Positions 7,677 to 22,488 of a stretch of 22,769 nt of DNA are shown piece by piece. Under the pieces are notes generated by a model. It saw only the letters and a list, made by a program, of their open reading frames with translations. It was not told where the DNA came from and searched no databases. Source of the stretch: a virus; the IMG/VR virus record IMGVR_UViG_3300020735_000063, positions 1 through 22,769 of that record; one strand, written 5' to 3'. The stretch's first letter is position 1. Each line of letters begins with the position of its first letter. The position numbers and the translations under genes are program-made.

Positions 7677-8273
7677 ATGAAAATTAACAAATTGAAATTG
7701 CTGATTCTGGCGGTCGCCAGTCTTTCACTGGCCGCAAACGCGCAAGGCACGTTAGACTATTTCGCGCAGCCGCGAACCGTCGTCGTGTCCGTGCCGCAGC
7801 AGCTTTCCGGTTCGGCGGCGGTGACGAATAACTGGGTTGACATTCACACGCTCGGCGGCATCGCCAAGCTGGATGTTTCCATGTTTAACATCTCCGGCTC
7901 AAACGCCGTTACGTTTGCGGTTCAAACGTCTGCCGACCAAACCAACTTGGTCACGCTGGCGAATGTGGCGATTGCAAACGCGCTGTCTGTGATTTACACC
8001 AACGCAACTTATGGCGGGACAAGTCTGACGGCGACCAACACGTTTAACATCGCCGGAACGCTAACCACGCCAACCTCCGCAACCGCTGGCTGGGCAACTC
8101 AATACATTATTCCCGCGCCGTTCACAAATTCCGGCACAGGATTGACGCTTACTTCAAACAGCATAACCACGTTTGGCTTTAAGGCTGACGACGCCGCGCG
8201 CTACGTTCGGATTGTCTGGACGGGCGCAGCCACGGTTACAAACGTCGTGAGCGTAACTTTGACCGCACAATAA
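7677..8273 (+). CDS. Signal-peptide protein beside capsid gene
   Basis: A 198-residue protein of unknown family. The first 22 residues form a textbook Sec signal: KINKLK, a hydrophobic core LLILAVASLSLA, then ANA before Gln23 as a likely signal peptidase I site. The mature part is rich in Thr, Asn, Ala and Val with alternating hydrophobic residues, suggesting a beta-sandwich (WVDIHTLGGIAKLDVSMFNI; later ADDAARYVRIVWTGAATVT). The latter resembles jelly-roll-like domains in phage head-proximal proteins, so a capsid decoration role is possible. Its place directly after the capsid gene supports that, but an exported decoration protein would be paradoxical because capsids assemble in the cytoplasm. 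It could instead act in the periplasm or at the cell surface. No ribosome site is visible; an AT-rich leader precedes the ATG. Confidence 0.75.
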   Translation: MKINKLKLLILAVASLSLAANAQGTLDYFAQPRTVVVSVPQQLSGSAAVTNNWVDIHTLGGIAKLDVSMFNISGSNAVTFAVQTSADQTNLVTLANVAIANALSVIYTNATYGGTSLTATNTFNIAGTLTTPTSATAGWATQYIIPAPFTNSGTGLTLTSNSITTFGFKADDAARYVRIVWTGAATVTNVVSVTLTAQ

Positions 8274-8300
8274 ACCAAATAAAACCTAACAAAAAACACT

Positions 8301-8567
8301 ATGAAATTCAAAGCAACAAGCGACTTTCGGAACACGCACAAGCTGAAAGTTGACGGCAAAAAAGAAGGCGATTTGCATATCGCCAAAGGCGACACGTTTG
8401 AAGTGGATGTTGAAGACCAAAAGACAGCGGAACTTATCGCCATCCTCGGACATTCAGGCCGCATCGTTGACGTTGACGGCTCGCCGGTTAGCGTGGCGAA
8501 GATTGATGCCGAAGTGAAAGCGGAAAAGTCGAAAGCCGCCGCGCTTGCCGCCGCTGAAAAGAAATAA
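8301..8567 (+). CDS. Small head-region protein of unknown function
   Basis: An 88-residue protein. The N-terminal 65 residues look like a small beta-barrel (MKFKATSDFRN, DLHIAKGDTFEVD, ILGHSGRIVDVDG), the tail is a Lys/Ala-rich helix (EVKAEKSKAAALAAAEKK). Small proteins with an FRN...GD.FE.D pattern are common between capsid and neck genes in tailed phages, where they remain uncharacterised. A capsid-associated or connector role is inferred from position. It is the last gene before a strong terminator, so it should be expressed at about the same level as the capsid gene. Confidence 0.7.
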   Translation: MKFKATSDFRNTHKLKVDGKKEGDLHIAKGDTFEVDVEDQKTAELIAILGHSGRIVDVDGSPVSVAKIDAEVKAEKSKAAALAAAEKK

Positions 8568-8587
8568 TCTGGTTGCAACCATTCCCG

Positions 8588-8627
8588 CCGCTGCCGCTGT
8601 TTTTGGGTTTCAGCGGCAGCGGTTTTT
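8588..8627 (+). terminator. Strong rho-independent terminator inside structural operon
   Basis: CCGCTGCCGCTG at 8588-8599 pairs perfectly over 12 bp with CAGCGGCAGCGG at 8611-8622 around an 11-base loop. It is followed at once by TTTTTG and further T-rich sequence. This is a complete intrinsic terminator on the plus strand. It sits between the head block and the neck/tail block, five bases before the next ATG at 8633, and no obvious promoter follows it. It probably acts as a partial terminator that makes capsid mRNA more abundant than tail mRNA, or is antiterminated. Confidence 0.9.
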
Positions 8628-8632
8628 GATTT

Positions 8633-8959
8633 ATGTCAGTCTATTCAATCCATGCAGCATCGCTGAAACAAGTTTATGATGAACTTGGAGTAGACGCGCC
8701 AGTGTTCACATGGAACGAGACGGACTGGAAACTTCTTCCCGGCGGCGCAAAGTTCAAACGCGCAAACGACATCGGCGGATTTGCGCTGACAAGCGACTTG
8801 CAGTTGACTTGCTTGACAGGCCAATTCGGCGGCACACTGCCCGACTCTGGCGAGACGATTACTTACGTCGGCAAGGATTACACCATAACCAACGTCACGC
8901 CGGCGCCCGCTGGTTATCAGATGCGGATTAACGCCGATTTGAACGTGCAAGGAATGTAA
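8633..8959 (+). CDS. Head-tail joining (stopper) protein, gpFII-like
   Basis: A 108-residue protein. The C-terminal half, DSGETITYVGKDYTITNVTP followed by PAGYQMRINADLNVQ, matches the beta-barrel of lambda gpFII-type stopper proteins, where a turn of the form GD-x-hydrophobic-x-hydrophobic precedes two strands. The N-terminal 35 residues are helical then aromatic. Its place after the capsid block and before the gp10-like protein fits a head-closure protein. The ATG is only five bases past the terminator's T-run, without a ribosome site, so its translation depends on read-through. The stop overlaps the next start by one base (TAATG). Confidence 0.65.
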   Translation: MSVYSIHAASLKQVYDELGVDAPVFTWNETDWKLLPGGAKFKRANDIGGFALTSDLQLTCLTGQFGGTLPDSGETITYVGKDYTITNVTPAPAGYQMRINADLNVQGM

Positions 8960-9633
8960 TGGCAAACGCGCAATTCAAAATTGACGACCGAGAGTTTATG
9001 CGGACGCTGGAAAAGTATCAGGAATACACGCGCCGGACTATTCCCGAAATCGTGAACACGAAGGCGTTTTTCATCGCGCGTGCGGCGGTGGTTTATACGC
9101 CAAAGGCTGATTCGTCAAAGGTCAGGAAGTTTTTTGGATATGATGGTGGACGAATTGCAGGAATGATAATCAACAAGCGGCGTGGCGAGCGCGGGCAAAA
9201 AGGGCTTTACGGCGATGCGATGGCTGAAGCGCAACAAATGATGAAGGCGGCTCGCCTTCGCTCGGTTGCTTATATCAAATCGGGATGGCTTCCGGCGATA
9301 AAAACACTTGGCGGATTGATACCGTCTAAAAGCGGTGCCATGCGTAGCGAAGAGGGCAACGCAACGGGCAGGCCAAAACAAATTGGGCAACCAAAAGGAA
9401 AAGTATCACCCGCAAAAGGCGGTGGATTTTTAGCCAAAGCAATCATAACCAACATGGCGAATGCGCGTCACGATACGAAAGACGCCTTGATGGAATTTGG
9501 CGGGCCAGCACTGCAAAAAGCCATTGAACACGAAACGCTTTCCATGAAGGTTTACATTGAGGACAAAATGCAAAAAGCCGCTGGCATGGCTGGCGTTAAA
9601 TTAACCAAAGGCGGTCAAATTGTTAACCGCTAA
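8959..9633 (+). CDS. HK97 gp10-like neck / minor tail protein
   Basis: A 224-residue basic protein. The N-terminal block KIDDREFMRTLEKYQEYTRRTIPEIV then NTKAFFIARAAVVYTPKAD follows the HK97 gp10 and lambda gpZ pattern: an amphipathic helix, a second helix that ends in T-P, then a loop rich in Lys, Gly and Arg. The family helps join the tail to the head. The middle is longer than usual, with an inserted Gly/Lys-rich loop around residues 125-160. The C-terminus is helical (ALQKAIEHETLSMKVYIEDK), as in the family. AAGGA at 8949-8953 may serve as a weak ribosome site. Neighbours (stopper upstream, tail terminator downstream) support the call. Confidence 0.72.
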   Translation: MANAQFKIDDREFMRTLEKYQEYTRRTIPEIVNTKAFFIARAAVVYTPKADSSKVRKFFGYDGGRIAGMIINKRRGERGQKGLYGDAMAEAQQMMKAARLRSVAYIKSGWLPAIKTLGGLIPSKSGAMRSEEGNATGRPKQIGQPKGKVSPAKGGGFLAKAIITNMANARHDTKDALMEFGGPALQKAIEHETLSMKVYIEDKMQKAAGMAGVKLTKGGQIVNR

Positions 9634-9636
9634 TTT

Positions 9637-10101
9637 ATGGAACATCCCGAACTAATTGAAAACGCTTTCGTCAACTACCTAACTACAAAAGGCGGCTGGA
9701 CAAGCAACCTACTTTTGCTGGCGGGCGAAAACAACGTGGACAAATCAGATGCGCGGATTGTGGCGTATGTGGAAGGCGATTTAGGCAACGAAGACCCGCC
9801 GCTTTCCGGCAACCGTTGGGCGGATGTTGTTGTCGAATTACGGACACCGTATAGCAAGTTGACCGCCGCAGAAAAGGCGAACGGCACTACCGACCCATTG
9901 CCACAACACAAAGCCAACGCTGCCAACCTTCAAACGGTGATGCTGTCTCAAACCTTGCCAGAAGATTTGACGGCGGCACAGGCTAATTTCACCTGCTTTG
10001 GGTTAAGTGAGCGGACGCCGACGCGAAAGCTGGATGGAAACTATTGGGGAACTGGCTGGAAAATGAAAATCTATTCCTGCCCGTCAGCTATACCCGCATA
10101 A
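9637..10101 (+). CDS. Tail terminator-like protein
   Basis: A 154-residue protein in the slot of lambda gpU / HK97 gp10+1, which caps the tail tube at its head end. The layout fits: an N-terminal helix (HPELIENAFVNYLTTKGGW), then a strand with polar residues (RWADVVVELRTPY), a variable loop, and a C-terminal strand pair (TRKLDGNYWGTGWKMKIYSCPS). Sequence identity to a named family is weak, so the call rests on order and topology. It has no clear ribosome site; only TTT separates the upstream stop from the ATG. Its stop codon is shared with the next leader motif. Confidence 0.6.
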   Translation: MEHPELIENAFVNYLTTKGGWTSNLLLLAGENNVDKSDARIVAYVEGDLGNEDPPLSGNRWADVVVELRTPYSKLTAAEKANGTTDPLPQHKANAANLQTVMLSQTLPEDLTAAQANFTCFGLSERTPTRKLDGNYWGTGWKMKIYSCPSAIPA

Positions 10102-10125
10102 ATTGACTTTTACTTTAATTGTAGA
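10100..10125 (+). promoter_or_regulatory. Recurrent leader motif, copy C
   Basis: AAATTGACTTTTACTTTAAT then TGTAGA leads directly into the ATG at 10126. It starts inside the upstream stop and places the ATG 18 bases after TTGAC, matching copy B base for base in spacing. The last bases GTAGAATG are shared with copy B. The conservation across an intergenic gap is much higher than in other gaps of this window. Confidence 0.6.
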
Positions 10126-10530
10126 ATGACGAAACTTTTAGCCATCACCATTTTGATTTGCGGCTTGTGCGCCTCGCGCGCGGCTCTGGTTTCTTCTAAC
10201 TTGCTCACGCTGACTTCGGTGAATTTCACTACCAATACCGGCACGGCGATTTCGCTTGGTAACGCCTCGGTCTATCCCGCGCCGACTTTCCTTTTGCAAT
10301 CGGTTGGAACTGGCGGCACGAACTTTATGAGCGGCGGCAGGATTCTTTTAGGCGTCTCAACCAACGTCGCAAACATGGACGTGGTTGGCGATTATTCAGT
10401 CACCAATGACGGCATCGCGTCAATCTCACTTACCAACAGCGGCACAGTTACGATTTACTGCGCTTTTCAGGCTTACAACAAAACAAACATTGCCGTGCAA
10501 CTTGGCGCGCAGTCCGTTCAAAACAAATAA
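10126..10530 (+). CDS. Signal-peptide protein within tail genes
   Basis: A 134-residue protein of unknown family. MTKLLAITILICGLCASRA is a likely Sec signal of 19 residues with cleavage before Ala20. No good lipobox is present, although Cys12 and Cys15 lie in the hydrophobic core. The mature part is Thr/Asn/Ser/Gly-rich and beta-predicted (LLTLTSVNFTTNTGTAISLG; ISLTNSGTVTIYCAFQAYN). It sits between the tail terminator and the tail-tube candidate and is headed by leader motif C, so it may be a separately expressed cassette. A virion decoration, host-surface or exclusion function are alternatives; nothing in the sequence decides between them. Confidence 0.75.
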   Translation: MTKLLAITILICGLCASRAALVSSNLLTLTSVNFTTNTGTAISLGNASVYPAPTFLLQSVGTGGTNFMSGGRILLGVSTNVANMDVVGDYSVTNDGIASISLTNSGTVTIYCAFQAYNKTNIAVQLGAQSVQNK

Positions 10531-10534
10531 TTTT

Positions 10535-10861
10535 ATGACACCTATTGCCGGAGTAAAAACCATTGCGGACGCGCTGGCGGCGATTGAAGCCATCACCGCG
10601 CCGAGTCAACAGCCTGTGCCGTCAGTTAAAGAGGGTGCAAGTCCAACCGAAAAGGTCGCTGTTGAAAACTCCATTGCGCTGATTACTTCGCAGAACGCTT
10701 TTGCCGCGCGCGAAGCCGAAATGATTGACGCGCTCAAAACATTTGCGAAAGCGCGACTCGCCGCCGTGCCGACTGAAATTAAAGTTGTCGGCTTGGACAT
10801 TCGCGCCAGCATCGCGGACGGCATGGAATTAGTTAGCATCCGAATCATTCAACACAAATAA
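10535..10861 (+). CDS. Small tail-region protein, unknown function
   Basis: A 108-residue mainly helical protein (IADALAAIEAI; SIALITSQNAFAAREAEMID; ALKTFAKARLAAV). The frame is open upstream to 10385, but that part overlaps the signal-peptide gene out of frame, so the ATG at 10535 four bases after its stop is chosen. The start context TAATTTTATG is the common one in this window. The last 25 residues look like two strands (EIKVVGLDIRA; MELVSIRIIQHK). No family is recognised. Its place before the tail-tube candidate suggests a tail assembly or tail completion role. Confidence 0.6.
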   Translation: MTPIAGVKTIADALAAIEAITAPSQQPVPSVKEGASPTEKVAVENSIALITSQNAFAAREAEMIDALKTFAKARLAAVPTEIKVVGLDIRASIADGMELVSIRIIQHK

Positions 10862-10863
10862 TT

Positions 10864-11310
10864 ATGAGTTCAACCATTGTCCCACTGGGCTACGCGGTCA
10901 ACTTTGGCTTTAAGGCCACGTCAACCGACCACGGCGTGACGGCAACGCCGTTCACTGGAATGTTACTGCAATCGTCCAGCATCAAATCCATTGCGGAGAA
11001 AGAACGCATTCGCTCTTTGCAGGGCGATGTGGTTGCCGAGAATTATTATGGTCTGGAAACTGCCGCCGATTTGAAATTTGTCATTGGTTCGTCTGGCATT
11101 GCCGCTGCGATTACGGCGACGAAACTTTCCGCCGCGTTCACACCGGGGACAATCATTGCCATAACCGCCGCCGCCAGTTCGCCGGACTTGGTTTATTCGT
11201 ATTGGATTGTGCAACCGGGCGCGGACATTCCGCAAGAAATCACGAAGTCGGCGGAGCTTTCAATTCCGCTCTTGCAAGTGCCGAATGTGACCGCCGCCGC
11301 GAGCGCGTAA
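10864..11310 (+). CDS. Probable major tail tube protein
   Basis: A 148-residue protein rich in Ala, Ser, Thr and Ile with alternating hydrophobic residues, suited to a beta-sandwich tube subunit. It opens MSSTIVPLGYAVNFGFKATS, then ERIRSLQGDVVAENYYGLETAADLKFV, resembling conserved parts of short tube proteins in which a loop precedes the inner-face strands. The end, EITKSAELSIPLLQVPNV, is also strand-like. It occupies the usual slot of tail tube proteins: after the terminator gene and before the chaperone-position gene and tape measure. Its small size matches tubes of short-tailed siphoviruses. No clear named-family match was recognised, so the call is positional. Confidence 0.6.
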   Translation: MSSTIVPLGYAVNFGFKATSTDHGVTATPFTGMLLQSSSIKSIAEKERIRSLQGDVVAENYYGLETAADLKFVIGSSGIAAAITATKLSAAFTPGTIIAITAAASSPDLVYSYWIVQPGADIPQEITKSAELSIPLLQVPNVTAAASA

Positions 11311-11324
11311 AAGTTTTACAACTT

Positions 11325-11954
11325 ATGATTGCCGCCGAATTTACAGCGGCTTTACCAGAGCCGCAAATCATACTAGGTTTGCGGCTCTGGCCGTTAAGCC
11401 TCGGAAGATACCGCTTGTTGAAGCGGTTTGAATCGCCTTTCGTAGATGAATCACCGCGTGAAATTTCCGTTCAAGAATTGACGAATGAATTATTCTTTGC
11501 GTTGCTGATTTGCGGATTGCCGGTGAGCGAGTTCAAATCTTATTTGATGCAGCCAAAACTTCTGGCGAAACAGGCAAAGCGATTCGGCAAGATTGCGGGA
11601 AAGCATACGAAGCAAAAAGGCTTTTCCATCCTGCCCTGTTTCGAGCAGTTCAAAATTTATTGCGCGGAAGCAACCGCAATGCCGTGGCATCCGTTGTCCA
11701 ACTCGCGCACGAACGAAGCTGAAAGCATTTCGCATTGGTCGCACTCGATGGAAATTTGCCTGCGTTCAAACGCTGGCTGGACGGCGGAAGAAATTGAAGA
11801 AGAGCCGATGGCGAAAGCGATGACAGATTTTTTCAAATACATGGAATCGCAAGGCTCTGTGCGCTTAATCTCGCACGAAGATTATTCCGCGATGGAAGCG
11901 CATGGCGAAGCAAACGCGAAAGCCTTTGAAGAATACTTGGCAACGCTAAATTGA
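11325..11954 (+). CDS. Tail assembly chaperone-position protein
   Basis: A 209-residue helical protein in the slot between tube protein and tape measure, where tail assembly chaperones such as lambda gpG/gpGT lie. The N-terminal half (LRLWPLSLGRYRLLKRF, then ISVQELTNELFFALLICGLP) resembles chaperone-like helical proteins. The C-terminus is acidic and helical (AEEIEEEPMAKAMTDFF; DYSAMEAHGEANAKAFEEYL). The frame is open upstream to 11202 inside the previous gene; ATG 11325 is preferred because it lies just past that stop. I see no second overlapping frame and no slippery site, so the usual -1 or +1 frameshift product seems absent. Confidence 0.6.
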   Translation: MIAAEFTAALPEPQIILGLRLWPLSLGRYRLLKRFESPFVDESPREISVQELTNELFFALLICGLPVSEFKSYLMQPKLLAKQAKRFGKIAGKHTKQKGFSILPCFEQFKIYCAEATAMPWHPLSNSRTNEAESISHWSHSMEICLRSNAGWTAEEIEEEPMAKAMTDFFKYMESQGSVRLISHEDYSAMEAHGEANAKAFEEYLATLN

Positions 11955-11955
11955 T

Positions 11956-13368
11956 ATGGGCTTAAACCTTGAATCAACCATTTCGCTAAATTCCGCGTCG
12001 TTCGAGCGCGGGATGCACCGCGTCAAAGAATCGGTTGCGGACAGCATTAAATCTTTTGCCATCGGCGCGATTGGCGTTGCGACGGTTGAGGAAGCCTTTC
12101 GCCGCACGATTGAAACGGCAGATGAATTAGTGAACACGGCGAAACGATTGGGGACGACGGTTGAGCAGGTTCAATTATTGCGCCAAGCTGCAAAAGATGC
12201 CGGAACGGAGATGGATTCGGTGGCGACGGCGTTGGAAAAAATCAATCAGGCGCGAGCAAAGGCTCTTGGTGGCGACCGGGCGGCATCCGCTGCGTTTGGC
12301 GCGCTGGGCGTTTCGCAGACGGATTTGAAGACAAAGAGGGCGGCTGATTTGTTCATGCACGAAATCAGCGAGACGGTCAAAAAAGTTTCGCCGGAACAGA
12401 TCGCGCAACCATTGCGGGAAGTTTTAGGGCGCGGCGCGGGTCAAGGCATCGCCGTTTTGAAAACGGATTTTGACGAGCTTGGGCGGAAGATGCAGGGGTT
12501 TATGATGTCCGGCGAGGTTGCCGAAAAGCTCAAAAAAATGAGCGACAACTTTGAATTGTTGGGAATGATTTTCATAAAAGAATTTAGCCCGGTTATTGTA
12601 AAGGTGGTTGAGTCTTTCTTGAATTTAATAACAGGAACCGGACTTGTGGGTAAAGCATTTGAGAGTTTGATTTTCTTGATAAAAAAAAACACAGACGATG
12701 CGCCTGCCGGGCTTAATGGTTATTCTTCAAAAGAACGGTCAGATACGGCCATAAAAATCCTTGACCTGATGCAGAAGTTTTCACCCGAAAAAGCTTTTAA
12801 ATTAACCGGGAAAGAATCTCCAGGAGTTAAGGCGATCATGATTCTTAAAGGATATTCCGATGTTGTAAATTCAAGGCTTAAGGGCGGTCCGTTTGAAGAT
12901 TTCAAAGGAAAAAGCGGAGAGGAATTTTTTCATTACTTGCAGCAAATAATTCAAAAGCAATCGGATTTTACAATGGGTGCGGCGAAGGGCGCGGAGGTTG
13001 ATGTCGCTGATTTAAGGAATTGGGTTAAAAATTACGGAAAGGGAGATGGAAATCCAAAGCCGGACTTTTCCGCAACCGCCGATGTTGCTAAAAAAATGCG
13101 CGGCAATGGAAGAATTGAATCAGACTCGCTAGTTAGAGTCGGAAACTTTCTTGGCTCAAACATCGGCGCGGTGCATTCGGCGGCAAGGATGGAACAATAC
13201 TCAAAAACCACCGTGGAATTATTGCGGGGCGTAAATCAAACTTTGAAAACAATTCAGGTTCAGTTGCCGACGAAGAATTTTGGCGGCAATGGTTCGCTTG
13301 ATGGCGGAATGAAAAATAGTTTTGATTATTCCGGCATCATGTCGCTAATGAACATTCCGAACCATTAA
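11956..13368 (+). CDS. Tape measure protein (short)
   Basis: A 470-residue protein that sets tail length and is ejected at infection. The N-terminal half has the family pattern: long helices, ELVNTAKRLGTTVEQVQLL at 57-75, and the diagnostic ALEKINQARAKALGGDRA followed by SAAFGALGVSQTDL at 92-124. A hydrophobic segment at about 202-234 (LLGMIFIKEFSPVIVKVVES onwards) is a likely membrane-active part. At about 1.5 angstrom per residue the tail would be near 70 nm. The base composition changes near residue 195: bases 12241-12300 contain 39 G/C of 60, bases 12541-12600 only 20 of 60, and the AT-rich state persists for several hundred bases. This indicates a chimeric gene. Start spacing is one base from the previous stop. 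Confidence 0.88.
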   Translation: MGLNLESTISLNSASFERGMHRVKESVADSIKSFAIGAIGVATVEEAFRRTIETADELVNTAKRLGTTVEQVQLLRQAAKDAGTEMDSVATALEKINQARAKALGGDRAASAAFGALGVSQTDLKTKRAADLFMHEISETVKKVSPEQIAQPLREVLGRGAGQGIAVLKTDFDELGRKMQGFMMSGEVAEKLKKMSDNFELLGMIFIKEFSPVIVKVVESFLNLITGTGLVGKAFESLIFLIKKNTDDAPAGLNGYSSKERSDTAIKILDLMQKFSPEKAFKLTGKESPGVKAIMILKGYSDVVNSRLKGGPFEDFKGKSGEEFFHYLQQIIQKQSDFTMGAAKGAEVDVADLRNWVKNYGKGDGNPKPDFSATADVAKKMRGNGRIESDSLVRVGNFLGSNIGAVHSAARMEQYSKTTVELLRGVNQTLKTIQVQLPTKNFGGNGSLDGGMKNSFDYSGIMSLMNIPNH

Positions 13369-13371
13369 GCT

Positions 13372-14232
13372 ATGATTAACACGCAAAAAATTCTAGGCAA
13401 TACAACGCCGCAGCAGCAGCCTTACAGCTACGGGCGGCGTTCTGACGGACGTTGGTCAAAAGTGATTTACGCATCGTTGTCGGAAGCGCAAATAAATAAC
13501 ATCGCCGCGCAAGCTGATTTGCTCGGAATCAATTACGAGTATCAAAATAATTTTGGCTCGCGCTCGGAAATTACTTTAGATTACAACTGGAATTTCATCA
13601 ATACCGCCTTCAACGCGGCGGCGACGGAAGCGGAAGAAACTTGGGAGATTGTTCCGAGCAAAGTAATGAAGCCGCTTTTGGAATCGAACAACCAACTTGT
13701 TTTGCAAGCCATTGCCGACGCCTATGGTCAAGTTGAAGATTTGAGATTTCGAGTTTCTGAAGCCACGCTTGGGAATTACATAAAAGACCCATCCAGCGGG
13801 CTAATCGCAATTCAAACATGGGGAACGGCTGCAAATCTTTATTCAGCATCTGGAATGCAGTTGTATCAAATTCTTTTAACCGACCCGCAAGCGGCTGTTG
13901 AATTGCCCGCGCCGGTAATGACGCATACAAAAATCGTTACCGCGCAATATATCAACCCCGCTACTTTTACGAACATCGGAAATGTAATTTCAACGCCAAC
14001 TTTAATTACTAGCGAAGGCATACCCGGCGGGCTTCTTTTCGACATTGCAAGTTTGCCGTCCACCAATCCACCGCCGCAACCAATAGGCATTACGGGCTAT
14101 AATCAGGTATTCAATTACGGATGGCTTAAAAATGCGCCGTCTGTCCGTCAAGTTGCAAAGCGCAAATGGAGCATTACGCAGACATGGGATTACGGTTTGT
14201 GGAATACTAGCATCTACGGGAACGCGCTTTAA
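13372..14232 (+). CDS. Distal tail protein, unknown function
   Basis: A 286-residue protein right after the tape measure, the slot for distal tail or baseplate-hub proteins. It has mixed strands and polar stretches; SYGRRSDGRWSKVIYASLSE, ITLDYNWNFINTAF and SVRQVAKRKWSITQTWDYGL are notable. Residues near 65-110 are helical (NAAATEAEETWEIVPSKVM). The final Trp/Tyr-rich segment is strand-like. No named family is recognised. The single-base gap to the next gene suggests coupled translation of a set of distal tail proteins. A distal-tail role is inferred from order only. Confidence 0.6.
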   Translation: MINTQKILGNTTPQQQPYSYGRRSDGRWSKVIYASLSEAQINNIAAQADLLGINYEYQNNFGSRSEITLDYNWNFINTAFNAAATEAEETWEIVPSKVMKPLLESNNQLVLQAIADAYGQVEDLRFRVSEATLGNYIKDPSSGLIAIQTWGTAANLYSASGMQLYQILLTDPQAAVELPAPVMTHTKIVTAQYINPATFTNIGNVISTPTLITSEGIPGGLLFDIASLPSTNPPPQPIGITGYNQVFNYGWLKNAPSVRQVAKRKWSITQTWDYGLWNTSIYGNAL

Positions 14233-14233
14233 T

Positions 14234-14560
14234 ATGCTCTATCCGCCGCCAAAACCATCGCAGGACAAAAGCCCGATTTGGGTTTGGCTGGATTACCTTG
14301 TTAAATGGGCAACGAGTGAGCGCGTCTTCATTCAAGGCTGGACAGTAACGCATCGCGCCGATGGAAAGTATTTTACACCGCCGCCGCAAGTTGGGGCAGG
14401 CCAAAAAGTTTATATGCAAGCCTGCTTGCAAGACGGGACTACTTGCTATGTGCCGGTATTGATTTCCGGCACGATTTACCGATTACCGCCAGCGGGTGCG
14501 GTAGTTATTGCAACCATTAACGCGGCGGCTGTCCCGAATGGCAGCAACGCACTAATTTAA
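14234..14560 (+). CDS. Small distal tail protein, unknown function
   Basis: A 108-residue protein between the distal tail gene and the large tip gene. It starts MLYPPPKPSQDKSPIWVWLD and has a beta-type body (ERVFIQGWTVTHRADGKYFT; GQKVYMQACLQDGTTCYVPV; LISGTIYRLPPAGAVVIATI). This resembles small carbohydrate-binding or immunoglobulin-like pieces often found next to tail-tip genes. The frame is open upstream to 14132, inside the previous gene; the ATG one base after its stop is chosen. No family match is claimed. Confidence 0.65.
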   Translation: MLYPPPKPSQDKSPIWVWLDYLVKWATSERVFIQGWTVTHRADGKYFTPPPQVGAGQKVYMQACLQDGTTCYVPVLISGTIYRLPPAGAVVIATINAAAVPNGSNALI

Positions 14561-14562
14561 TT

Positions 14563-17500
14563 ATGTTCGGATGCTGCTGCTGCAACCTCGGTGCATACGT
14601 TCCGCGTTTGAAAAACGTGACGCAGGTGCGGACGCAATCGGATTGCACCGACCCGACGACGAACGCGACGGTGACGGCGGATGGCGTCAACATTCCAGCG
14701 GCGCGGTTGGATAATACTTACGACGCAGCTCCTGGTGGGCCGCGCGTGTGTTCCGGTGGCGCGAAGTGCGGCAAGTGCGGCGGTTGGTTGCAGATTGGCG
14801 ATTACAATGGCTTGCCCGCGCAGGAGGTGACGGCGGGGACGGATGACATCGTGGCGGGCGCAACGCCGGATGCCACGCACTATAATCTCGATAACAACGC
14901 TTACGAGGCATACCCGAACGCGGCGGCGAGTTTCTTTCAGGTGGGCGACATCGCGCAGATTGTGACGATTGGCACGACGGACTGGACGGCAATGGGCGCG
15001 AGCGCAAACACGGTGGGCTTGATTTTCACGGTGACGGCCACCGGCAGCGGGAGCGGCACGGCGCAGTTGATGACGGATATGCTGATGGCGCGGCGGCGCG
15101 GCGGAAACTGGATTTTCGCGCAGAAGTATTGGCATGGACGCCCAGGTTTTTTTACCTGCGATTCAAATAGCGACCCGACGACCACTGCGAATCAAATTCA
15201 CTATCTCAAATCAGCCCGCCGAGCAAGATTCAGCACCGGAAACGCGACGATTACAGGCTACAATGCTTATTCAGGTTCGCCGCCGGTTCAAATCAACGAT
15301 CCGCTGACCGACATCTACGGAAATTCTTTCACGCCATCTGATGTTTTTAATTTAAGCGCGGATTTCTCCATCGGCGCGGATTATGAGGTTGGCCGGACAA
15401 CCGGGATTTCGACGCAAACTTATATCGGCAACGCGGCAGCGATGCCGGTGAATTATCAGACAAATTACGGCTCGGCCATGGCGTATGTTCCGGGCTCCGT
15501 CGGCGGCTATGTGCAAACCACGAGCCTCGCCACGCCGACTTCGTTATTCACCTTCACTGGAAATTTCCCAATCAATTTAGTGACGGGCTTTGTCACGGTT
15601 CCGGCGGCGTGTTGGAACATGGGGGCGATTTCCGGCTTTCCAACCATTGATAATGAAAATTATTCACTGGCTTATTTCGGGGGCAATGTTTTTACCGCAA
15701 TGTCCGTTTTGATTCCGGTCTTTGCGGGCTTATGCAATCAACTCGCTTTGGCCGATGCGTTCTGTTCGGTGATTAGTGTTCCGGCGGCATATCCGTTGGA
15801 GAGCGGGTTTTCCGGTTCAGCTTCGGATTTGGAAACGGCGGTCATTGCAGCCATCACCAATGCCGTCATCGGCGCAACCAACATAGCGCCAACGCCAGCG
15901 ATAACTTGCGCGGTCACATTTACCGACACGGGGATTTCAGGCGTTTTTGCTTTAGGCGGGTTCACCGAAATAAAATTGGGCTGGGCGCAAACTGTCAGCT
16001 CTGGAATGTCAGGCAGTTTCTCGGTCACGCTGTCCAAACCCTACACCGCTGCGGACTGCGTATCTGATTTTGAAGCGGCATTGGCGGCGTGGGACATGAG
16101 CGACTTCAAACGGCTCAATAGTTTGCGGATAGATGAAAACTTGGCGCACGCCGCGCTTTGCACTTATGCGGAATGGCAAGGCGCCGTTGTGCCGCCAACA
16201 GATTTGTTCACGACTATGAACAACTACGCATCGCCAATCGCCGACAGCAACGGCTACGCGCCTTGGACTTACGACCCGCTACTTTACGTCCCGAACACCT
16301 CGACGCCGTTGCCAACCAATTACGGAACGTGGACGCCTGTAAGTGGTCAGGGCGCGGACTGGACGCCGACGTGGGCGCAAATCACTTGGCACGACCCTAA
16401 CGATTTCATTTGGCAGACACAGGCATTGCCCGCACACGGAATTTATTTCACCGACCCGACTACCGTTGGGTTGGTTCCCGCGAACTTCACGGACGCGAAC
16501 TTGCGGACTGGAATTTACGACGGCTCAATCATCGCGCACACGAAACCGATTGACCCAGCCACTAGCCAGAGCATCGGCATTTGCGACCGTCATTTCTGGT
16601 TCAATGCCGTGACGTATCGCCGCGAGCCGCAGATTGACCAATTTGGAAACCCAACGGGATTATCTTATTGGTTCCCTTATTCACATGGCGCGTATTCGGA
16701 TGATTCTGGCTTTACGGATTCGACAACGGAAAACCCTGCCGGAACGTATTTTGACGGACAGTTGCCGACGCCGACGATGCGCTGGATGCCGCCGCAAAAC
16801 GAGAAATACGATGGCTTGGCTGTGGGGACGCCGAACATCGGCAATTTCCCGCAACAGTTCACCGACTTCTCGAACGGTTGTTTGAAGGGCGGTAAGTATT
16901 GTCAGGCAGTGCAAAAATGGAATGCGGTGGATTATCTGCAACCGAGCGGCAAACGGAAATTTGACGTTGACCAAACTACCGTTGGCATCATCGTAGCGGC
17001 GGGCAGCGGTTATTTCACCGTGGGCAAACCCAGCACCACCAGCGCGTTTCCGGCGACGGGTTACATTGCGGTGACGGGCAGCATCGGCGTGACGGGGATT
17101 TATCCCGTGACGGGCGCGGCGACGGATAATGGCGACCATACTTGGAATGTGCCGGTGGGCGCGAAGATTGAAGATTTCCCGACGGGCGTTTATACTTACG
17201 GCGACCAGCGCGATAATGTGAATTGGCTCGGCTGGCTCAAGTGGGTTGGTTATACGCAATACGCGCAGACGTTCGCCAGCGCACCGGGCATCACTGGCCG
17301 CGTGGCCGTCACCACGAGTTACGCCGCTGGCGTCTTGACGGTGAACACGACCGCCGCGCAACCTTACTTCCGCAAAGGTTCTGACACAGCTTTGCGAGCG
17401 GTGAACCTTTACGACGCGGGCGGAACTTTGTTGAACGGTTCGCCGCTCGTGCTGGCGCGTGTCTCTACTTCGGACGACAATCATTTCACGGCGACAACTT

Positions 17501-18258
17501 CAAATTATCCGACGGCGGTTTGGATGGTGGACGCGGCGTTGACGTGGGCGCAATCAGGCTTTACCAACGCGAGTCAGAATACCGGCGTTCACATCAAATG
17601 GCAGTTTGACCAACGCAAAGCGAACTTGGCGACGGCAGCGCAACCGGCATGGCTTAATGGAACGGGCGCAGGTGTTGGTGATGGCGTGGTCGGCTGCTTG
17701 GATTCCGGCTATTCCATTGAGCAATTCAATTATCTAAATGGTTCATGTCCGGCCATCGTCGGCATCGTGCCGAGTGGTTCACCGGAGAATTTCGGGACGC
17801 AAGTGCTGTTTGATTTTCCGACCGTGCCGATTGATAACGGCTACGGCGCACACTCGCAAAGTTTTATCGGCCTGACGATGGAAGACCCGTTTGAAATCGC
17901 TTGCGGCACGCCGTTCAAGCCGGATTTTAACCCGATGGATTACACCACGCCATTGAGCTTTTCATGGAAAGAAGATGACGGCAGCGGGAAATCAGATGAT
18001 GGCGGGGCTACACCGCCCGTTTATTATTACGCGATGCGCCCGCTTGTGGAAGCCGCTGACGCCGTGCCGAGCGGCAAATCGTTGCCGACGGGCGTGACGC
18101 TGTTCTACGACCCCGCCAATAAATTTCCGCCGCCGTGTTACCCGAATGGCATCCTTTACGGCGCGACTGTCACGAGCGATTGGAAGACCACTGAACGCAT
18201 TTGCAACAACGTCTCGCGCTTTGTGGCGGACTACGCGGCGTGGTCATTCTGCCCATGA
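14563..18258 (+). CDS. Large tail tip / adhesin-like protein
   Basis: A 1231-residue protein, the largest here, probably forming the tail tip or central fibre that contacts the host. The first ten residues hold four consecutive Cys (MFGCCCCNLG), followed by VCSGGAKCGKCGGW at 62-75; these may bind metal. Residues about 124-168 (QVGDIAQIVTIGTTDWTAMG onward) match a widespread phage module in which GTTDxTAxGA precedes FTxTxxGSGxGTA. The remaining parts are Trp/Tyr/Asp/Thr-rich with many short strands and little helix, and no enzyme motif is visible. Its C-terminus contains a further Cys pair. The stop overlaps the next ATG as ATGA. Base composition is noticeably GC-rich near 14830-15110 and 16980-17180. 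Tip identity is inferred from size, order and neighbours. Confidence 0.72.
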   Translation: MFGCCCCNLGAYVPRLKNVTQVRTQSDCTDPTTNATVTADGVNIPAARLDNTYDAAPGGPRVCSGGAKCGKCGGWLQIGDYNGLPAQEVTAGTDDIVAGATPDATHYNLDNNAYEAYPNAAASFFQVGDIAQIVTIGTTDWTAMGASANTVGLIFTVTATGSGSGTAQLMTDMLMARRRGGNWIFAQKYWHGRPGFFTCDSNSDPTTTANQIHYLKSARRARFSTGNATITGYNAYSGSPPVQINDPLTDIYGNSFTPSDVFNLSADFSIGADYEVGRTTGISTQTYIGNAAAMPVNYQTNYGSAMAYVPGSVGGYVQTTSLATPTSLFTFTGNFPINLVTGFVTVPAACWNMGAISGFPTIDNENYSLAYFGGNVFTAMSVLIPVFAGLCNQLALADAFCSVISVPAAYPLESGFSGSASDLETAVIAAITNAVIGATNIAPTPAITCAVTFTDTGISGVFALGGFTEIKLGWAQTVSSGMSGSFSVTLSKPYTAADCVSDFEAALAAWDMSDFKRLNSLRIDENLAHAALCTYAEWQGAVVPPTDLFTTMNNYASPIADSNGYAPWTYDPLLYVPNTSTPLPTNYGTWTPVSGQGADWTPTWAQITWHDPNDFIWQTQALPAHGIYFTDPTTVGLVPANFTDANLRTGIYDGSIIAHTKPIDPATSQSIGICDRHFWFNAVTYRREPQIDQFGNPTGLSYWFPYSHGAYSDDSGFTDSTTENPAGTYFDGQLPTPTMRWMPPQNEKYDGLAVGTPNIGNFPQQFTDFSNGCLKGGKYCQAVQKWNAVDYLQPSGKRKFDVDQTTVGIIVAAGSGYFTVGKPSTTSAFPATGYIAVTGSIGVTGIYPVTGAATDNGDHTWNVPVGAKIEDFPTGVYTYGDQRDNVNWLGWLKWVGYTQYAQTFASAPGITGRVAVTTSYAAGVLTVNTTAAQPYFRKGSDTALRAVNLYDAGGTLLNGSPLVLARVSTSDDNHFTATTSNYPTAVWMVDAALTWAQSGFTNASQNTGVHIKWQFDQRKANLATAAQPAWLNGTGAGVGDGVVGCLDSGYSIEQFNYLNGSCPAIVGIVPSGSPENFGTQVLFDFPTVPIDNGYGAHSQSFIGLTMEDPFEIACGTPFKPDFNPMDYTTPLSFSWKEDDGSGKSDDGGATPPVYYYAMRPLVEAADAVPSGKSLPTGVTLFYDPANKFPPPCYPNGILYGATVTSDWKTTERICNNVSRFVADYAAWSFCP

Positions 18259-18473
18259 AACCCGCTGCTTTGAGATTTGAACCTGTAAGCAATCCTTACA
18301 AGTTCGACCGCGCCAAAGTGATTGCCGCGCCGGAACTGCAATCATCACGCCTCGCCATTTGCGAGCCGTGCCAATTCAACGCGAACGGCAATTGCAAGCA
18401 ATGTTGCGGCGGCGTGCCAATCCCGACGCTGGTGAATTTGACCGCCAGCCGTTGCGGACGCGGGAAGTGGTAG
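18255..18473 (+). CDS. Small Cys-rich tail-region protein
   Basis: A 72-residue protein with a zinc-ribbon-like pattern: CEPCQF, then CKQCCGG, ending in RCGRGKW. A short phage protein with C-x2-C, C-x2-C and a final Cys then GKW is a recurring member of tail-fibre loci, so this is likely the same type, but its function is unknown. The start ATG overlaps the upstream TGA by three bases, so it is translationally coupled to the tip protein, itself Cys-rich. A longer frame opening at 18201 lies in the upstream gene and is not used. Metal binding and help in folding or assembling the tip are possible roles. Confidence 0.7.
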   Translation: MKPAALRFEPVSNPYKFDRAKVIAAPELQSSRLAICEPCQFNANGNCKQCCGGVPIPTLVNLTASRCGRGKW

Positions 18474-18477
18474 CCAG

Positions 18478-18497
18478 AAATTGACTTTTACTTTATT
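18478..18497 (+). promoter_or_regulatory. Recurrent leader motif, copy D
   Basis: AAATTGACTTTTACTTTATT runs directly into ATGATG at 18498. Its first 17 bases are identical to copy C. Here the start codon is 12 or 15 bases after TTGAC instead of 18, the shortened form of the same leader. It lies five bases after the upstream TAG and precedes the fibre gene, again a signal-peptide product. Confidence 0.6.
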
Positions 18498-20639
18498 ATG
18501 ATGACACGGCTTATCGTTTTCGCGCTTTTATTGACACAGTTTGTTTGCCAAGCGCAAACGAACATCAGCGTAATTTATTCATTCGTTAATGGACTAGGTC
18601 AGACGCAAACCGTTAAGCAAGTTTCTTTTACGCCGCTGGCGTTTGGGCTTGATGGAAAAGCCTACGTCGTCGGCGACGAAACTTTCCGAGTAATCACTTC
18701 CGCAAGCTACACCAATCCAATGTTGTCCGGCTTCAGCTATCGCGTGAAATACTTTTCGACGATTCAGCCACCGACGCTGACGGCGTGTTTTACAAATTCA
18801 TTCAGCACAAATGTTACGGGGACGGTTTATGCCGCAGACTACACCGCCATTTCGACGAACTTAAGCAATGGACTTTATGCTTATTCAATGGCGGCCAGCG
18901 ACGCGCTCTTTGCGTCGTTGAATCAATCCACGAACATCGCGCTGGTGGCCGCAAAGAATGCCACGAATGGATTGCCGTCGAGCGTTTGGACGCTCGGCAC
19001 GGCTTCGGCGCAAAACACTAACGTCTTTCTCGGCACAAATTTCACCGTGACCACATTGAACGGATTGACGAATAAGTTTTCCGTGGATTCGACTGGTAAA
19101 GGGACGCTGACGATTGGCAACACCAACTCCACCTCCAACGTGGTGACGAATGGTGCAGGGCTGAATTATCCCGCTCCTGGCCAATCCGGTTCACTCGCTG
19201 GAAACGGCGGAGGAGTTGGTGGCCTTGCTGGTTTTCTTTTATACCCCAACTCCGGTGCAGGTGCTGGCTACCTAGCGAAGTATGACACCAATTACGGCGT
19301 GGAGCTTTATTATCCCGACCCAAACGGCAGCACCTCAACGCTGCTGGCTGACCAGTCGCATAATCTTCATGTCCCTGCCGGACTTTATGATGGAAATCAA
19401 TCTACTGGAGCTCAAGGAGATATCCTCACCGCCACCGGCTACGGCGGCGTTTATTGGAATAATTACATGACTGCGCAACAGTTTTATAGCGATTCGGCAA
19501 CGCTGTGGATAGCAAGTCACGACTACGGAGATGGCGGCTACGGCCGCGTCAGCATCGGCAACATAGACAACGGAGGCGGTCCAGGAAATCCGAACAATGG
19601 GTTGATGATGGCATCACAAGCAGGTAATACAACAATCGCTATGGACGCTGACACAGGATACGCGCAATTCGGTGGAGGTCTATCAACTATAAACAATATT
19701 TTGGACGATGGTAGTGGCAACATGACCGTGAATACTTCCAACAACAGTGGCGGATTAAATGTGCAAGGCAACGTTCCGAACGTCTGTCTTTCGCTTTACC
19801 CCACTGGAACTGGAGGCATTAAATGGCAGTTTTTTAGCACTAGAAGTGACTCTGGCTATGCTGGTGGTGAGTTCATTTTCAACCCATACGGATACTCTCC
19901 GGTTGTGGCGTATAACGCAAACGGCGGCGAAGCGCATGGCTCGTTCGCCAGTAGTCCCGTTCCTAGTTCTGGCGCACTCTTTGATAAAATCAGCGTCGGA
20001 ACCACAGTCGCAGCCGCAAAATTAGAAGTGGGTGGCACTATGCACTCAACGGACAATTACACCAATGATGCGAGCTTGTTTGTGGCGACCAAGTTGGGAG
20101 TTGGCACCACAACTCCGGGGGCAACCGTCGACATCTCCGGCACTGTTCACTCGTCTGGAAATTACACCAACGATGCGAGCTTGTTTGTGGCGACCCAGTT
20201 GGGAGTTGGCACCACAACTCCGGGGGCAACCGTTGACATCTCCGGCACTGTTCACTCGACCGGGAATTACACCAACGATGCGACCATTTTTGCAGGTACC
20301 GTTACAGCAGCTACCGCAATCACCGAGCGGGCTAAGGATGTCGCACCGCACGTCACCGCGTCGCCTTCGACCAGCGGGACGGTGACGGCTTCCACGTCAT
20401 ACTGGAATGAAACTGTTTATCTTGTCAATTTCTCAACCATCGCCAGTATTACCATCGCGTTGCCGTCCAGCGGCACGGTGGCAGGCCAGATTTATCGCAT
20501 TCACACCAAGTCAAGCGTGACCACCTTGAGCGTGACGGGCGGCTCTTTTGCTGACGCAGCAGTAGTCACTTTAACCGCAGGGCAAACAATCGCGTATCAG
20601 GCGACAACCACGACTGGCACATACATCCGAATTGAATAA
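18498..20639 (+). CDS. Tail fibre-like protein with signal peptide
   Basis: A 713-residue fibre-like protein. The first 19 residues (MMTRLIVFALLLTQFVCQA) form a Sec-type signal with likely cleavage before Gln20; Cys17 is not in a good lipobox. Next come Asn/Thr/Ser-rich beta stretches (NTNVFLGTNFTVTTLNGLTN; GNTNSTSNVVTNGAG), Gly-rich loops, and repeats of 35 residues around 520-590 built on LGVGTTTPGATVDISGTVHS, a motif typical of trimeric fibre shafts. The C-terminal 90 residues are strand-rich (LVNFSTIASITIALPSSGTV) and end in YIRIE; no intramolecular chaperone domain is visible. A secreted fibre would not be expected to join cytoplasmic virions, so either the leader is not cleaved or the protein is a surface adhesin. 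Leader motif D precedes it. Confidence 0.75.
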   Translation: MMTRLIVFALLLTQFVCQAQTNISVIYSFVNGLGQTQTVKQVSFTPLAFGLDGKAYVVGDETFRVITSASYTNPMLSGFSYRVKYFSTIQPPTLTACFTNSFSTNVTGTVYAADYTAISTNLSNGLYAYSMAASDALFASLNQSTNIALVAAKNATNGLPSSVWTLGTASAQNTNVFLGTNFTVTTLNGLTNKFSVDSTGKGTLTIGNTNSTSNVVTNGAGLNYPAPGQSGSLAGNGGGVGGLAGFLLYPNSGAGAGYLAKYDTNYGVELYYPDPNGSTSTLLADQSHNLHVPAGLYDGNQSTGAQGDILTATGYGGVYWNNYMTAQQFYSDSATLWIASHDYGDGGYGRVSIGNIDNGGGPGNPNNGLMMASQAGNTTIAMDADTGYAQFGGGLSTINNILDDGSGNMTVNTSNNSGGLNVQGNVPNVCLSLYPTGTGGIKWQFFSTRSDSGYAGGEFIFNPYGYSPVVAYNANGGEAHGSFASSPVPSSGALFDKISVGTTVAAAKLEVGGTMHSTDNYTNDASLFVATKLGVGTTTPGATVDISGTVHSSGNYTNDASLFVATQLGVGTTTPGATVDISGTVHSTGNYTNDATIFAGTVTAATAITERAKDVAPHVTASPSTSGTVTASTSYWNETVYLVNFSTIASITIALPSSGTVAGQIYRIHTKSSVTTLSVTGGSFADAAVVTLTAGQTIAYQATTTTGTYIRIE
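20055..20264 (+). repeat. 105-bp tandem repeat in fibre gene
   Basis: Two complete copies, 20055-20159 and 20160-20264, differ at six positions. A third copy keeps only its first 19 bases (from 20265), and a diverged copy lies just upstream (about 19998-20054). The period of 105 bases is 35 codons, keeping the frame. The near-identity includes synonymous sites, which points to recent duplication and possible copy-number change of the fibre shaft. Confidence 0.92.
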
Positions 20640-20643
20640 AACC

Positions 20644-21081
20644 ATGAAAAAAACTCTAATTACTATCGGCCTCGCTATTCTAGCGGGGATAACTTCTCAA
20701 GCTGTTCGCGCTCAAAGCTCGGTGGATGTCCAGACGGAAGCTGTGACTATATCCACCACTTTGCCAGTTGGAGTTGGCGAGAGCCTAATGTCTCAAGCGG
20801 TAGTTCCGAATGGATTTATTTCCATCAAAGGGACGAACGCCATCATCGGTGGAAAGGCAGTTATCATCGTGCCGCTGACGACGCTCGGCCAGTTGGTGAC
20901 AAATTTGCCCGCTGGTTATGACATCACAAATCTTGCGTCAGCAACCTTTTCCACGACAAGCAATGGGGTGGTGGTTCGCGCCAAGTTGGTGAGGTCGGTA
21001 GCTTCTGACTCAGCACCGACCACAAACGTGGAATCCAATGCGGACAACGCTGTTACAAACTCGCCATCGGTTAGTCAATGA
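20644..21081 (+). CDS. Small signal-peptide protein after fibre
   Basis: A 145-residue protein starting MKKTLITIGLAILAGITSQ, then AVRA before Gln24, a clear Sec signal. The mature part is strand-rich (TISTTLPVGVGESLMSQAVV; GKAVIIVPLTTLGQLVTNLP) and ends in a Ser/Asn/Thr-rich tail. No family is recognised. ATG 20644 is chosen; a TTG twelve bases earlier overlaps the fibre stop. The adjacent fibre suggests an accessory role, perhaps periplasmic or on the cell surface. It has no ribosome site, but its start is four bases from the fibre stop. Confidence 0.75.
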   Translation: MKKTLITIGLAILAGITSQAVRAQSSVDVQTEAVTISTTLPVGVGESLMSQAVVPNGFISIKGTNAIIGGKAVIIVPLTTLGQLVTNLPAGYDITNLASATFSTTSNGVVVRAKLVRSVASDSAPTTNVESNADNAVTNSPSVSQ

Positions 21082-21186
21082 AAGCTATTTAAGTTTTATG
21101 ACCAAGGGAGAAGGGAAAACAAAATGCACGAAATGATGTTAGCAAAAGCAACAATAACCGTGCCAGCTTAAATTTATGAGCGACAA
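21082..21186 (+). other. Gap with tiny open frames
   Basis: This 105-base gap contains purine-rich AGGGAGAAGGG at 21104-21114 followed ten bases later by an ATG at 21124 that opens a 15-codon frame (MHEMMLAKATITVPA) ending at 21171. An ATG at 21098 opens a shorter frame and one at 21177 opens four codons. The 15-codon frame has the better ribosome site, but a peptide cannot be claimed from this alone. No hairpin or promoter was recognised. Confidence 0.3.
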
Positions 21187-21438
21187 ATGACCAAACTCAC
21201 TATGAGCCTAGACCCTGAAAAGTTTGAAGCCTTACAAAAAGACGTTTCCGAGATAAAAACCGCATTGCTTGGAAATGAGCGGCTTGGAATTGACGGCATG
21301 GTTTCTGACGTGCGCGATTTGAAAAAATGGAAAAGCACGATGCGATTACGGATTGCTTTTTTCGCGGGCGGGGCGGCAACAATTTGGGAGGGACTAAAAT
21401 TCGCAGGTGAATACATTGTCAATAGCAACCACAAATGA
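21187..21438 (+). CDS. Holin-associated small membrane protein (XhlA-like layout)
   Basis: An 83-residue protein. Residues 1-50 form an amphipathic or coiled-coil helix (DPEKFEALQKDVSEIKTALL, later MVSDVRDLKKW). A single hydrophobic segment follows at about 54-75 (LRIAFFAGGAATIWEGLKFA). This layout of charged N-terminal helix plus C-terminal membrane segment is that of XhlA-like lysis accessory proteins. The start is the ATG at 21187, just after a four-codon frame. It lies directly before a holin-like gene, supporting a lysis module. Sequence similarity to a family is not strong. Confidence 0.6.
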   Translation: MTKLTMSLDPEKFEALQKDVSEIKTALLGNERLGIDGMVSDVRDLKKWKSTMRLRIAFFAGGAATIWEGLKFAGEYIVNSNHK

Positions 21439-21482
21439 TAGCTTGTCTGAAATCAAGCGCGAACTAAAAACCAAACACTGAT

Positions 21483-21800
21483 ATGAAAGCATTTAATCAT
21501 TACCTAGCCGTGATGAACGCGGGCGCGGTGCAAGCTGGTGTTCACAGTCTAAAAGCCTACGTCAGCGTGGCGGTGGCACACGCGACGACGGACGCCATTC
21601 CTGCGCTATCTTTTCAACAAATAATTGCCGTTTTTGGCGTTGCGTTTTTGCTTTCCGTCTTGGATTACATGGACAAAAATCCTTTGCCGATTTACGAGAC
21701 TCCGGTGGAAAATCAAGTGGTTATACCGCAAGTCCAAACTGCGCCTAGCCAGCCGGAGCCTCCTGCTTTGCCAAAACCTATTGACAATCCGCCGAAATAA
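21483..21800 (+). CDS. Holin-like membrane protein
   Basis: A 105-residue protein with a likely transmembrane segment at about 44-61 (FQQIIAVFGVAFLLSVL) and a weaker hydrophobic helix at about 11-33. The pattern LLSVLDYMDKNPLP directly after the membrane helix is seen in small phage membrane proteins of lysis cassettes. The C-terminal 35 residues are Pro/Gln/Glu-rich and soluble. A holin role, opening the inner membrane to release an endolysin, is inferred from the layout and from the neighbouring accessory protein; no endolysin lies in the window, so it could lie downstream. Confidence 0.6.
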   Translation: MKAFNHYLAVMNAGAVQAGVHSLKAYVSVAVAHATTDAIPALSFQQIIAVFGVAFLLSVLDYMDKNPLPIYETPVENQVVIPQVQTAPSQPEPPALPKPIDNPPK

Positions 21801-21819
21801 ACCTATAAACGTAAAACTT

Positions 21820-22488
21820 ATGAAAGAATCATCCATCAATCCCGCCGTCGCCAAAATCATCACCATTCTTGCGTTGCTTGGATTGGCTTTTATGTTATTC
21901 GGTGCGTTCAGCGCACACGCGCAGACAGCATCAGCAACGCCGCCAGCGACGTTTGCAAGCGAAGGCATCACCTTGCCGGCATCCATCACTCCGACAATTA
22001 GCGGCGGGCTTGAACAAGTCATGCAATCCGCTTTAGGCTCAACGAACTTTGCCGTTGCGGTTGGCGGAGGGCGCGGGCTTCATGGCAATAACAATCTGCT
22101 TTTCGTGGACTACCTCTACAACTTTGTCGGCAACGGTAAAACGAGCGCGGGCTTCATTCTTGGCTTTGACGAAATCGCTCATGGCGCACACTTCACTACT
22201 GACAACGTGAATTTTGTTAAGGGCGGCCTGAATGTTCAAACCGTCATTGCCCCGCTCAAAGGATGGGGACTCACGAACTTCTTTATTGCGCCGTTCGCTT
22301 CCGTGCTGATTGATACTAGTGGCGGGCAAGTAGGGCAAATCGTCGTCACTGGCGCGAACTACAAAATCGGCATTGGCAAGGGCTGGAATTTTAATCTGAC
22401 TGGCTTTTACGAAAATCGCACTGGCGGCGATACGTCCGTTGACGGCGCATATATTTGCGCGGCGATTGCTTTCAGTCGTAACTTTTAG
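21820..22488 (+). CDS. Phage-encoded outer-membrane beta-barrel-like protein
   Basis: A 222-residue protein. A basic, hydrophobic leader (VAKIITILALLGLAFMLFGA) followed by AHA before Gln35 is a Sec signal. The mature part has many alternating strands with Gly turns (GSTNFAVAVGGGRGLHGNNN; YKIGIGKGWNFNLTGFYENR) and ends IAFSRNF with a C-terminal Phe, the classical signal for recognition by the BAM complex. Together this strongly suggests an eight- to ten-strand outer-membrane barrel. A longer frame opens at 21625 inside the holin gene, but ATG 21820 gives the signal peptide. Roles could include superinfection exclusion, a lysis aid, or a host-surface change. Related phage outer-membrane proteins are known in principle (lambda Lom), but I see no specific match. 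Confidence 0.75.
   Translation: MKESSINPAVAKIITILALLGLAFMLFGAFSAHAQTASATPPATFASEGITLPASITPTISGGLEQVMQSALGSTNFAVAVGGGRGLHGNNNLLFVDYLYNFVGNGKTSAGFILGFDEIAHGAHFTTDNVNFVKGGLNVQTVIAPLKGWGLTNFFIAPFASVLIDTSGGQVGQIVVTGANYKIGIGKGWNFNLTGFYENRTGGDTSVDGAYICAAIAFSRNF

Follow-up and report, generated by a model that had tools for sequence, protein, structure and literature searches.

Predicted Sec signal peptides on a cement-type protein, a fibre-like protein and three further products of an uncultivated tailed phage

The stretch of DNA analysed here (the window, 22,769 bases, an entire IMG/VR record) encodes five proteins, A to E, whose N-terminal leaders are almost certainly real signal peptides and which, judging from their sequences, are very probably exported. 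One of them, the product of gene A, is a cement-type jelly-roll protein with a signal peptide, as indicated by its profile, its position and its predicted fold. The best overall explanation, which we hold tentatively and with slightly less than even confidence, is that Sec and signal peptidase I serve to export parts of the virion exterior that are joined to the particle outside the cytoplasm, and that E may in addition be an outer-membrane protein.

Five leader-bearing products in the window

The window contains the genes for the small and large terminase subunits, a head-tail joining protein, the portal and a protease-capsid fusion, followed by a head-to-tail block, the tape measure and tail/fibre genes, and its 3' end comes soon after gene E. 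An Rfam search gave no match. The features discussed below are as follows, with predicted cuts marked by an arrow:

5782..7638, + strand: protease-major capsid protein fusion (PHROG 617, E 1.4e-82), no signal peptide by our scorer, fixed upstream neighbour of gene A
7677..8273, + strand: gene A, 198 aa, jelly-roll cement/minor-capsid-like protein with a Sec signal peptide (score 5.07), homologous to leaderless capsid-adjacent proteins, leader present in 17 lineages
7677..7742, + strand: predicted signal peptide of gene A, predicted cut ANA↓QG, supported by the sequence, the conserved Gln and a motif just 3' of it
10126..10530, + strand: gene B, 134 aa, small tail-region protein with a signal peptide (10126-10182), cut probably SRA↓AL (score 4.27)
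18498..20639, + strand: gene C, 713 aa, fibre-like protein with a signal peptide (18498-18554), cut CQA↓QT (score 3.99)
20644..21081, + strand: gene D, 145 aa, with a signal peptide (20644-20712), cut VRA↓QS (score 4.06)
21820..22488, + strand: gene E, 222 aa, possible outer-membrane protein with a signal peptide (21820-21921), cut AHA↓QT, and a C-terminal Phe (score 4.08)

A preliminary description of this DNA had named five products starting at 7677, 10126, 18498, 20644 and 21820, with a basic start, a hydrophobic core and an A-x-A-like cleavage site. All five open reading frames are present, on the + strand and with ATG as start codon, and every leader has the basic n-region, the hydrophobic core and small residues at -3 and -1. 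The leaders are MKINKLKLLILAVASLSLAANA↓QGT in A, MTKLLAITILICGLCASRA↓ALV in B, MMTRLIVFALLLTQFVCQA↓QTN in C, MKKTLITIGLAILAGITSQAVRA↓QSS in D and MKESSINPAVAKIITILALLGLAFMLFGAFSAHA↓QTA in E, so that the predicted cut is Ala↓Gln in four of them (A, C, D and E), as had been described, and Ala↓Ala in B.

The leaders were evaluated with a rule-based scorer whose criteria are a positive n-region, an uncharged hydrophobic core and the -3/-1 rule. Exactly five of the 25 window genes were flagged, with A to E scoring between 3.99 and 5.07 and the remaining 20 no higher than 3.0. In the calibration on a 49-kb stretch of E. coli, all known or probable exported proteins (8/8) scored at least 3.9, and a score of at least 3.6 was given to 0/22 cytoplasmic and 0/11 inner-membrane proteins. 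On related phage loci 3/404 genes (0.7%) reach 3.6, and at this background rate the probability of finding five in 25 window genes by chance is about 1e-6 (binomial). None of the clade's genes for terminase, portal, capsid or tape measure passes the scorer. An exception among the other genes is a tail-completion-like gene of relative G005, which stands at the threshold (3.6) and is probably a false positive. The scorer also flags no gene of the Verrucomicrobia phage P8625, in agreement with the published SignalP analysis, which found no signal peptide in any of its proteins (PMC4642752); P8625 resembles the window phage in being tailed, with a GpA-type terminase and a weakly similar tape measure (2.7e-9), and differs from it in lacking leaders by either method. 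A second exception stands at a related locus (L123:7642-7938), where we observed a 98-aa open reading frame with a strong leader (5.44) and the cut AWA↓Q, located directly 5' of the capsid gene and starting with TTG.

Gene A and the distribution of its leader

The product of gene A had been called decoration-like, and its homology to jelly-roll cement or minor capsid proteins bears this out. Profile-profile comparison (hhalign) of its mature domain with the leaderless capsid-adjacent protein gave 94% with E 1e-7, and cross-searches between gene A and the leaderless profile with hmmsearch gave 4e-6 to 6e-6 in both directions. The leaderless homologues are encoded immediately 3' of the capsid gene in phages that include Xanthomonas phage Murka and the Synechococcus phages S-CBS1, S-CBS3 and S-LBS1, and gene A occupies the same place, between the capsid and head-closure genes. 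AlphaFold predicts a beta-sandwich for it (mean pLDDT 73, close to 90 in the core), and the viral fold matches of this model include a 115-aa protein of Pseudomonas phage PPpW-3 (TM 0.79 by target length). This match carries no name, and from the phage and the length we infer that it is gp07, which has the same length, matches the leaderless profile (8e-33) and lies before head closure. The authors of the Murka study compared their protein to jelly-roll cementing proteins by means of HHpred and AlphaFold (PMC10892653). A sequence search of solved structures with gene A returned nothing significant, the cementing protein 3j4u_H appearing at E 0.34, and the matches to animal-virus capsids in a fold search of the PDB (TM near 0.3) were discarded as generic jelly-roll similarity. 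At one related locus (L039:12266-13022) the capsid gene is followed by a tandem pair of gene A-type jelly-roll domains, neither of them with a leader.

Gene A thus shares with the jelly-roll cementing or minor capsid proteins (Murka mCP, PPpW-3 gp07 and those of S-CBS1, S-CBS3 and S-LBS1) a homologous domain, adjacency to the protease-capsid gene and a place before the head-closure genes. Those proteins, however, have no leader, about 125 aa and 14-20% charged residues, whereas proteins of the gene A type have a leader, about 180 aa in the mature part and 6-11% charged residues. A jelly-roll cement protein is expected to be made without a leader and to be added in the cytoplasm; because gene A carries one in all 17 lineages, we have filed it as a leader-bearing homologue and not as an ordinary cement member. 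The product may still be present on capsids; it could also have lost its capsid role.

Comparison of the post-capsid gene in all fetched capsid relatives found the leader inside the window's clade and none outside it. A further scan for gene A homologues used a pattern built from the mature part alone, and therefore blind to the leader; every additional lineage that it returned carries the leader, making 17/17 lineages with this version of gene A, which lies directly 3' of the capsid gene throughout. Among the 16 full-length homologues the leader sequences share a mean identity of only 40%, despite which Ala is kept at -1 in 15/16 and Gln at +1 in 14/16. In most clade members the cut site is directly followed by the motif D-x-[FY]-x(3)-R-[TS] (DxFxxxR[TS]) or a near variant, which the leaderless relatives lack. 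In the capsid tree (42 rows) the 17 leader-bearing lineages form one side of a branch with support 100/100, and such shared ancestry amounts to one change followed by long retention and not to 17 independent events. That the leader was gained in this clade is the simpler reading, although not the sole one since the root of the tree is not fixed.

Genes B to E, composition and host

At the protein level the leader of gene B is identical in G003/G004. Other lineages have small leader-bearing proteins in a comparable position; their alignment with gene B is poor (18-28% identity), and they are thus positional counterparts of it only. Gene C gave no PHROG or Pfam match above cut-off and no phage match; we keep for it the earlier designation of fibre-like, which is drawn solely from its length, its three 105-nt repeats, its place at the end of the tail block and its variable C-terminal part. 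Its N-terminal ~190 residues are kept in G003/G004 and the remainder is replaced, as would be expected for receptor-binding proteins. The Cys residues of B and C had raised a lipoprotein reading, which was rejected by inspection, no lipobox being present. Large leader-bearing proteins, which we regard as fibre- or spike-like, recur in G004, G005, G006, G013, G020 and G021. In G021 (L139:1405-9389) three consecutive leader-bearing proteins of 457, 962 and 1241 aa are encoded on the strand opposite the capsid gene, the 1241-aa one having LamG and Ig domains. Within the window, positions 14563-18258 encode a 1231-aa Cys-rich protein (24 Cys) with no leader and no family match, perhaps a tail tip.

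No homologue of gene D was found, and informative homologues of B and D are absent beyond the closest relatives. Gene E has a 50% identical homologue with a leader in G004, and G020 encodes a separate 210-aa leader protein ending in KF. The signal peptide of gene E, its C-terminal aromatic residue and its place after the fibre gene recall lambda Lom and other outer-membrane proteins encoded by phages, but no sequence match was found, and the model examined for an eight-stranded barrel is of low confidence (pLDDT 39), with no match below E 0.001; E is here called a possible outer-membrane protein. As to the lysis region of the preliminary description, the genes at 21187 and 21483 look holin-like by eye and neither has a family match, which leaves that designation weakly supported.

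Composition is an independent property that picks out the same five proteins, and it would fit a life outside the cytoplasm. Charged residues make up 5-10% of mature A to E as against 11-36% of the other 20 window proteins, and Thr and Asn together 17-25% as against 6-17%, with E overlapping the range of the others in the latter measure. Leader-bearing and leaderless gene A relatives are separated by a shift of this same kind.

With Gln at +1 in 4/5 window leaders and 14/16 gene A homologues, the leaders agree with the sequence criterion of the Bacteroidetes Q-rule. Under this rule the exposed Gln is cyclised, which protects exported proteins (PMC5837995, PMC10653852), and in Bacteroidetes Gln occupies +1 in 71% of substrates on average (PMC5837995). 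The rule is not exclusive to that phylum, Ignavibacterium reaching 77%. The Ala↓Gln preference resembles the Q-rule and may point to a host among Bacteroidetes or another high-Q group. No host was identified: genome contigs scanned with capsid and terminase profiles yielded no relative, and a plasmid search with the LamG-bearing protein gave no match. A verrucomicrobial host, guessed from the T/N-rich, Ig- and LamG-bearing exported proteins, was left unsupported, P8625 being without leaders and Ala↓Gln pointing elsewhere. The Bacteroidetes phages B40-8 and Flavobacterium phage 11b showed lipoprotein-like leaders only and no A-x-A↓Q. A Shine-Dalgarno motif is found at 1/25 window gene starts (781-22587) and in 12% of clade genes versus 35% in leaderless relatives, as would suit a host for which such a motif is dispensable, for example one of the Bacteroidetes.

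A further motif, AAATTGACTTTTACTT (up to 2 mismatches), occurs at 3360-3375, 5756-5771, 10100-10115 and 18478-18493 on the + strand and at 306-321 on the - strand, that is in 5 copies versus 0.23 expected in the window. It coincides with or closely follows the stop codon of the gene before it, lies 5' of the genes for head-tail joining, capsid, B and C, and is kept at the same four places in G003/G004. It is a possible late promoter or translation element.

Export of virion parts and its alternatives

In the explanation that we tentatively prefer, the clade of uncultivated tailed phages would use the leaders of A to E as signal peptides for Sec and signal peptidase I. The Sec system of the host would export the five proteins and signal peptidase I would cut them at A-x-A↓(Q), after which the mature proteins would stay in the periplasm or at the cell surface, their N-terminal Gln being converted to pyroglutamate in a Q-rule host. 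The exported set would be the exterior, late-added part of the virion (A as cement, C as fibre or spike, perhaps B), and these parts would bind finished heads and tails outside the cytoplasm once lysis frees them, the terminase, portal, capsid, tail and tape measure proteins being made without leaders in the cytoplasm. E would be a phage-made outer-membrane protein comparable to lambda Lom. That exported proteins join the virion outside the cytoplasm is, from the sequences, an appreciable possibility that falls short of the probable. More doubtful is a complete two-compartment assembly, with cytoplasmic heads and tails that Sec-exported cement and fibres join at lysis, coming from the periplasm or the cell surface. 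We favour a virion role because the leader-bearing set comprises the parts that other phages add last and on the outside (cement, fibres), because leaders are absent from core components and because gene A is never separated from the capsid gene. The leaders are confined to cement, fibre-like, small and membrane-like proteins, and export of exterior virion parts suits the gene set somewhat better than the exclusion, adhesion or envelope remodelling suggested in the preliminary description. We know of no precedent for cement loading outside the cytoplasm.

The five proteins might instead be exported without being virion parts and act on the host envelope, in an infected or a lysogenic cell, by excluding superinfection, masking receptors, mediating adhesion or helping in lysis, A being then a cement turned secreted factor. 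This possibility, which we consider open to doubt, ranks only a little lower, since the product of gene E resembles an envelope protein; that of D is exported and small, and the known exported phage proteins Lom, Bor and Llp act on the envelope. The sole published precedent that we found in open-access full text comes from the Porphyromonas gingivalis phages (Nixviridae), which encode Sec proteins that expose Gln after cleavage, as here, and that are proposed to modify the outer membrane; unlike here, their host is known and, in the accessible part of that report, they are products of genes of unknown function with no cement or fibre homology reported (PMC10367356). A purely envelope-directed function sits less easily with gene A lying always directly 3' of the capsid gene, with the finding of no leaderless second copy of gene A in the clade, and with leaders on large fibre- or spike-like proteins in several members. 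The same report also proposes that a prohead protease processes capsid proteins with predicted leaders (PMC10367356), and the window phage does encode a protease-capsid fusion, so that the leaders could be capsid-targeting peptides that resemble signal peptides and are removed by this enzyme. We consider this very unlikely here, since the same type of leader is found on fibre-like, small and membrane-like proteins and gene A homologues that lack a leader occur in relatives sharing this protease fusion.

Uncleaved leaders serving as membrane anchors had also been suggested, and on cytoplasmic virion proteins such leaders could equally be membrane-directing assembly helices. No new assembly route would then be needed to bring virion parts to the membrane, and the hydrophobic cores would presumably suffice for insertion. 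This is nonetheless unlikely, given that the A-x-A (-3/-1) and the Gln at +1 persist in otherwise diverging leaders, when an anchor would be under no selection for a cut site, and that the scorer passes no inner-membrane protein. As for wrong start codons or chance hydrophobic N-termini, starts are less certain where, as in most window genes, the Shine-Dalgarno motif is absent; such an artefact is extremely improbable against a chance rate of 0.7% per gene and a clade-wide conservation of the leaders. Start-site errors in related phages, raised in the preliminary description, do not account for the leaders either: in gene A no start codon lies in frame between codons 8 and 36 (0-based), the conserved motif of the mature part starting at residue 23, and leader codons change mostly silently in B (synonymous to non-synonymous 2:0) and C (2:1), the ratio in A being 3:3.

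We agree with the preliminary description that such a combination of leaders in one phage is unusual. For tailed phages, completion of the virion is assumed to take place in the cytoplasm. A clade whose cement homologue and fibre-like proteins retain Sec leaders would either assemble part of the particle outside the cytoplasm or have converted capsid parts into secreted factors, neither of which, to our knowledge, was known before. Phage proteins targeted by diversity-generating retroelements, which include fibres, have been described as lacking signal peptides (PMC6199706). For the annotation of phage genomes the present case carries a warning, namely that a signal peptide should not be taken as the mark of a non-structural gene.
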